This document shows positions 29,087 through 29,158 of a stretch of DNA of 42,578 bases, in pieces. Under the pieces are notes generated by a model, which was not told the origin of the DNA, made no database searches, and was given only the letters and a program-made list of their open reading frames with translations. Position numbers and translations under genes: made by a program. The number at the start of each line of letters is the position of its first letter. Positions within the stretch are counted from its first letter, which is position 1. The DNA comes from a virus: IMG/VR virus record IMGVR_UViG_3300031759_000056, positions 1 through 42,578 of that record; one strand, given 5' to 3'.

Positions 29087-29158
29087 TTATTTATTCATTA
29101 CGTACATAGTTACTTCAAAGCCAAAACGCATTTCTGTTGCAGTAGGTTTATTCCACAT
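29087..29158 (-). CDS. pqqA: PqqA, peptide precursor of pyrroloquinoline quinone (phage-borne)
   Basis: 23 codons on the minus strand, starting MWNKP and ending [11 protein letters not shown], with AAGGAG 7 bases before the ATG. It has the same length as Klebsiella PqqA and the defining GxEVTxY core: Glu15 and Tyr19, the two residues joined by the radical-SAM enzyme PqqE to build PQQ. Cellular PQQ synthesis also needs PqqB, C, D and E, none of which is here, so the peptide would feed the host enzymes. PQQ is the cofactor of methanol, ethanol and glucose dehydrogenases. The gene is opposite to its neighbours, with its own ribosome site and terminator, like a moron. Confidence 0.88.
   Translation of the reverse strand: [23 protein letters not shown]

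Follow-up and report, generated by a model that had tools for sequence, protein, structure and literature searches.

A 23-codon pqqA gene standing alone in a virus genome, and its distribution among phages of methylotrophs

Results

A pqqA gene in a virus record

The IMG/VR virus contig IMGVR_UViG_3300031759_000056, here called the window (the whole stretch of DNA analysed, 42,578 bases), contains a very short gene, pqqA, for the peptide precursor of the redox cofactor pyrroloquinoline quinone (PQQ). The gene is 23 codons long plus a TAA stop and occupies 29158..29087 on the minus strand. It is a complete short peptide gene with start codon, Shine-Dalgarno sequence and stop; the Shine-Dalgarno AAGGAG (29171-29166, minus strand) lies 7 bases 5' of the ATG, in agreement with the original prediction of a 23-codon gene with a well-spaced AAGGAG. 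That prediction had placed PqqA at 29087-29158, which is right as to position. It left the strand unstated; the minus strand encodes PqqA and the plus-strand reading gives an unrelated translation. In the profile searches that had been proposed for checking its identity, the peptide exceeds both curated cut-offs, with 37.7 bits against PF08042 (E 1.9e-9; cut-off 21.1) and 39.0 bits against TIGR02107 (E 4.8e-10; cut-off 20), and a six-frame PqqA search over the complete record has this place as its single match (E 8.5e-10). Glu15 and Tyr19 (Glu-x-x-x-Tyr), the cross-link positions of PqqA, are present where they had been reported. Judged from its sequence, 29158..29087 codes for a genuine PqqA precursor peptide. 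At E 0.01 the peptide matches none of the PHROGs families, and an Rfam scan of the window at gathering scores gave no match.

The gene is oriented against both of its neighbours. On its 3' side is a convergent gene for a 166-aa protein with no Pfam match (28524..29024, plus strand), and on its 5' side a divergent gene for a RusA-like Holliday junction resolvase (29220..29573, plus strand). An intrinsic terminator with an 11-pair stem and a T run follows pqqA at 29035-29007 on the minus strand and overlaps the end of the convergent gene. The 91-base stretch that includes this terminator has a better fold than shuffled versions of it (z -2.65; equalled by 4 of 200), and the terminator mainly explains the structure 3' of pqqA.

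Viral pqqA in phage records and in IMG/VR

A tblastn search over 50,697 phage records, with matches accepted at E up to 10, returned 12 of them. Ten phage records have pqqA: Venkman, P19250A, MEP301, MEP401, MEP402, four Melnitz records and the environmental podovirus ctXG6705. Two matches to Acinetobacter phage MD-2021a were dropped as phage. The one that was inspected (L128, CAKLQF020000010.1) is bacterial DNA, in which pqqA precedes pqqB, pqqC, pqqD and a radical-SAM gene and is adjoined by a polyphosphate kinase. None of the ten phage records has pqqA annotated, as expected from the earlier claim that gene callers miss such short genes. Five have no feature there and five a hypothetical protein, which in the two of those five inspected (Melnitz EXVC044M and ctXG6705) sits on the other strand.

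In the cultured methylophages (Venkman, P19250A, MEP301, MEP401, MEP402 and the four Melnitz) pqqA also stands alone, and its peptide is 73-91% identical to that of the window. These methylophages belong to phage lineages different from that of the window. When 4.7 kb of MEP402 was used in a blastn search, P19250A, Venkman and the four Melnitz records matched at pqqA only, and MEP301 had its best match at pqqA and one further place.

A search of IMG/VR with a pattern for the PqqA core returned at least 120 stretches, and all 120 of those listed have an ATG-started PqqA frame. A second pattern, for the N-terminal half only, also returned at least 120. Among these the 119 copies read all have 23 residues with Glu15 and Tyr19, residues that the pattern had not selected for, and 58 of the 119 lie in stretches missing from the core-pattern list. 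One stretch that is probably bacterial, L043, remains inside the IMG/VR counts given here and below (frames, Shine-Dalgarno, promoter and terminator, pN/pS, Glu15 and Tyr19). In addition, a pattern for the alphaproteobacterial PqqA core found 9 viral stretches, 2 of them giving a PqqA-like frame when read with a regular expression; L315 and L316 are viral-classed contigs with frames of this alphaproteobacterial type (GMEVTSY core).

Could these stretches be bacterial DNA classed as viral? Flanking frames were compared between 127 viral stretches (the window, 120 from IMG/VR, of which 4 are under 3 kb, and 6 from phage records) and 120 bacterial pqqA stretches; other bacterial contexts may escape this comparison. 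A frame is in common in 47 of the 127, in 44 of them only with L237. This stretch comes from a bacterial genome collection, contains homologues of 11 of the 16 frames in the P19250A stretch and evidently is a phage contig binned with bacteria. In L044 and L090 the common frame overlaps pqqA itself. Besides the L237 matches this leaves L043, which has a SoxYZ gene in common with a bacterial pqqA stretch, as the sole such case. The cultured phages are the firm cases of viral pqqA.

Selection and expression signals

Viral pqqA is under purifying selection on the protein. For codons outside the search pattern the ratio of nonsynonymous to synonymous polymorphism (pN/pS) is 0.27 in a set of 105 unique viral sequences, each 69 bases long; inside the pattern it is zero by construction and uninformative. 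A Shine-Dalgarno-like core stands before 120 of 126 viral copies; in a control stretch further upstream it occurs in 2 of 124.

Promoters and terminators were counted after near-identical upstream sequences had been removed, which left 105 of the 127 viral copies. TATAAT is found upstream of 34 of 105 (in shuffles 15.4 on average and at most 23). A leader hairpin with a stem of at least 6 pairs is present in 38 of 105 (shuffles: 15.4 on average, at most 24), and 51 of 102 copies are followed by a terminator no more than 100 bases away (shuffles: 6.6 on average, at most 11). We conclude that viral pqqA often forms a transcription unit of its own. Bacterial copies treated in the same way also have the terminator (74 of 116; shuffle mean 9.0), with a weaker excess of hairpins (21 of 117; shuffle mean 10.4) and no excess of TATAAT (1 of 117; shuffle mean 5.5). 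The viral leader hairpin recurs between TATAAT and the Shine-Dalgarno with a varying stem sequence, for example in L008, L015, L042, L082, L101 and L107. It might be a stabiliser of the short mRNA, or an operator.

Conservation among relatives of the window phage

The IMG/VR contigs L251 and L252 have a window-like neighbourhood with a 100% identical 166-aa neighbour protein, and in L253/L254 and L255/L256 the homologue of this protein is 66% and 52% identical. Throughout L251-L256, pqqA comes right after the homologue, on the opposite strand. L281 has the same PqqA peptide as the window and also has the upstream stretch in common with it; the best segment of its ejection-type protein shows 65% identity to that of the window. 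When the window, L281, L253 and L255 are aligned, four-way conservation is sharp from ATG to stop, with third-base changes, and slight outside. Conservation of the frame in related phages, a check proposed with the original prediction, is thus seen in several of them while the flanks diverge.

A PqqA frame was present in the stretch scanned for 8 of 28 loci found via the 166-aa neighbour and for 3 of 32 found via the ejection-type protein, 2 of these 3 being on the contigs of L251 and L252. The remaining loci, mostly more distant, have no PqqA frame in the stretch scanned, a scan that under-counts: in record G071 (L285) a whole-record search found pqqA outside it.

The solo state and the enzymes of the host

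No homologue of pqqBCDE was found by tblastn in any of the 127 viral stretches with Acinetobacter PqqB, C, D and E as queries. The test works, because the same search finds a homologue beside pqqA in 29 of 120 bacterial stretches. Whole records were searched for 48 of the 127, picked mainly for length and excluding the window. PqqE was above cut-off in none of the 48, with one weak partial match, and a PQQ-dependent dehydrogenase was present in one, G012, which looks bacterial around its pqqA.

Record G012 (IMGVR_UViG_3300025120_009955, 72 kb), which contains the stretch L043, was dropped as a candidate virus with both pqqA and a dehydrogenase. Its dehydrogenase is at 34049-35731 (608 bits). 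Its pqqA lies beside SoxYZ, CHASE2/cyclase and cell-type genes; one tail-type gene follows at some distance, and a curlin-repeat gene lies in another part of the record. The record probably consists of bacterial DNA to which a provirus is joined.

In 20 Methylophilales-type genomes (19 titled Methylophilaceae or its genera, one 'Betaproteobacteria bacterium TMED22') PqqE was above cut-off in all 20, and 2-12 copies of pqqA were above cut-off per genome. The genomes had been chosen from pqqA matches, which gives one copy by construction; the extra copies and PqqE are not so determined. Methylotenera mobilis 13 (G045) has 12 copies, and some of the genomes G043-G062 have two copies about 200 bases apart.

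The virus and its probable host

The claim that the gene is flanked by virus genes agrees with the content of the record, in which the RusA resolvase is accompanied by terminase, portal, ejection-type and further virion genes. The hallmarks are a terminase large subunit (6819..8309, minus strand) and a portal protein (3723..6266, minus strand). The DNA ejection-type protein (31632..34454, minus strand) was the query used for finding relatives of the window phage. The terminase is closest, with 59% identity, to phage 023Pt_psg01 and pelagiphage HTVC027P, and the portal is 43-44% identical to theirs. A calcineurin-like phosphoesterase (27369..28073, plus strand) is closest to that of the OM43 phage MEP301, with 74.7% identity against at most 65% in pelagiphages. 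The window peptide differs in 2 of 23 residues from a peptide carried by 26 of 130 bacterial copies. The host is probably a member of the Methylophilales, methylotrophs of fresh and marine waters, because the phosphoesterase is closest to that of MEP301 and because of pqqA itself, evidence that points to such a host and falls short of proof.

Does the gene follow the host? In a whole-record PqqA search over 32 records, 13 matched, including 6 of 16 IMG/VR relatives of the window. Venkman, P19250A, MEP301, MEP401, MEP402, Melnitz EXVC044M and ctXG6705 have one pqqA place each, which amounts to six of six methylophage isolates searched whole, plus the one environmental podovirus. The same search found pqqA in none of nine sister phages. 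These comprise relatives by the window terminase (HTVC027P, HTVC023P, 023Pt_psg01, DSL-LC04), relatives by the phosphoesterase (HTVC202P, HTVC112P, Baldr) and DNA matches to MEP402 (CRP-4, CRP-5). The host on record is Pelagibacter for five of them, Rhodobacteraceae for two, 'Gammaproteobacteria' for one and unknown for one. All nine phage records named for Methylophilales or Methylophilaceae that any search returned have pqqA, a count that is partly selected since tblastn picks for pqqA and other methylophage genomes, such as MEP431-434, HIM624-A and Venkman EXVC038S, were never among the records returned. The distribution of pqqA appears to follow the methylotroph host. Together with the near-host peptide and the MEP301-like phosphoesterase, this supports, short of proof, the methylotroph link drawn in the original prediction.

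Discussion

What might a phage gain from a gene for a precursor peptide alone? Biosynthesis consumes one PqqA per PQQ, and the enzymes turn over. The peptide is therefore the cheapest single part with which to supply PQQ. We think it likely, with good confidence, that the phage supplies this consumable precursor to the enzymes of the host and so sustains methanol oxidation. The product of the window gene would most likely be a functional PqqA precursor. During infection the phage peptide would be bound by host PqqD, host PqqE would cross-link Glu15 to Tyr19, and other host enzymes would process the cross-linked peptide to PQQ. The level of PQQ could thereby be raised, or sustained while host expression declines, and the PQQ-dependent methanol dehydrogenase that is the energy source of the host would be kept running. 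The window pqqA can be regarded as an auxiliary metabolic gene, in that a metabolic gene of host type lies in the genome of a virus and is maintained there by selection.

Two published observations are in keeping with a supply of precursor alone. One, in PMC9851590, is a methylotroph in which three of the five pqqA copies are solo; the other, cited there, is that a Gluconobacter cell extract turned added PqqA into PQQ, at 70-80%. Other points weigh against this interpretation. By the account in PMC7936290, overexpression of pqqAB in A. pasteurianus raised PQQ by 29% only and the full cluster raised it eightfold; the precursor may therefore not be the main limit. The window pqqA has its terminator, and a promoter search of the window found no consensus sigma-70 promoter 5' of it. 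The 48 viral records have no convincing dehydrogenase of their own, and we infer the host of the window record from its genes.

The same host enzymes would be met by a peptide with the opposite effect, a decoy that occupies PqqD and PqqE without yielding PQQ and turns host methanol oxidation down. Many copies could compete for the enzymes, and a survey of ribosomally synthesized and post-translationally modified peptides suggests a role in prokaryote-phage interactions for a PqqA-annotated family tied to defence systems by co-expression (PMC11118758). The sequences hold no specific pointer to such a decoy, however, and it would need neither Glu15 nor Tyr19, yet both are kept in all of the 119 copies not selected for them. 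The viral peptides also closely resemble host PqqA, although an 11-residue core had served to collect the bacterial set. We regard a decoy as very improbable. A supply of PQQ for a different purpose has somewhat more to recommend it, for PQQ serves several dehydrogenases and the viral records have no convincing dehydrogenase of their own. The cofactor might go to an aldehyde, glucose or other alcohol dehydrogenase, or act in a redox role. The distribution is tied, however, to the Methylophilales, which obtain their energy through a PQQ-dependent methanol dehydrogenase, and we consider a different purpose unlikely.

Least probable of all, in our judgement, is that these genes are functionless, recently captured host copies or bacterial DNA in viral-classed contigs. 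Methylophilaceae have several copies of pqqA that could easily be captured, and both the inspected MD-2021a record and, probably, L043 are bacterial. The purifying selection and the conserved place of the gene in diverged relatives of the window speak against a passenger, as does its presence in cultured-phage genomes described as complete. As for contamination, only L043 of the 127 stretches has a separate neighbour gene in common with any of the 120 bacterial pqqA stretches compared, besides those matching the phage-like L237.

The supply of precursor to host enzymes thus remains the reading we prefer. It is fairly probable, though we hold this less firmly, that solo pqqA is a near-universal hallmark of Methylophilales phages, which otherwise unrelated lineages have acquired or retained and which has escaped notice because it is so small. 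It would then be a 'consumable substrate' auxiliary gene, in which only the stoichiometric precursor is supplied by the phage and all enzymes are those of the host. As such a hallmark, pqqA would be a marker by which uncultured methylophages could be assigned to their host, and among the most consistent metabolic genes of this guild would be one of 23 codons that the annotations examined do not contain. In lakes and coastal seas methanol is consumed by the Methylophilales. Should carriage of the PQQ precursor be routine among their phages, viruses would directly affect the amount of methanol oxidised during infection. Cultured phage-host pairs exist, so the idea is open to testing. More generally, viral annotation has a blind spot for genes of short peptides.

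Comparison with known systems

Virus-encoded PqqA is itself already known. The Lake Baikal virus population VP_266 of methylotrophs has PqqA and a methanol dehydrogenase, and raised methanol oxidation was proposed for it (PMC7678222). A 2026 reservoir study counts viral pqqA among phosphorus genes (PMC13188868). A word search of the main texts of four methylophage papers (PMC9004378, PMC8024684, PMC10580990, PMC8163748) found no viral PQQ gene; in PMC9004378, PQQ appears as a medium component. The breadth of viral pqqA and its unannotated presence in cultured methylophages look new, no earlier report having been found in the literature searched.

Like VP_266, the window comes from what is probably a virus of methylotrophs and encodes PqqA. 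In VP_266, however, a viral methanol dehydrogenase accompanies PqqA, whereas the window pqqA stands alone, in a phage with a terminase most similar to those of 023Pt_psg01 and HTVC027P. Methylophilaceae host PqqA is like that of the window in its 23 residues, Glu15 and Tyr19, MW-x-x-P start and close sequence; the commonest bacterial peptide accounts for 53 of 130 bacterial copies. A pqqA without pqqBCDE beside it is also usual in bacteria (91 of 120 stretches). Unlike the host gene, that of the window lies in a virus genome in which no pqqBCDE was found, and its peptide has Asn at position 3, as do those of its near-identical relatives and L281.
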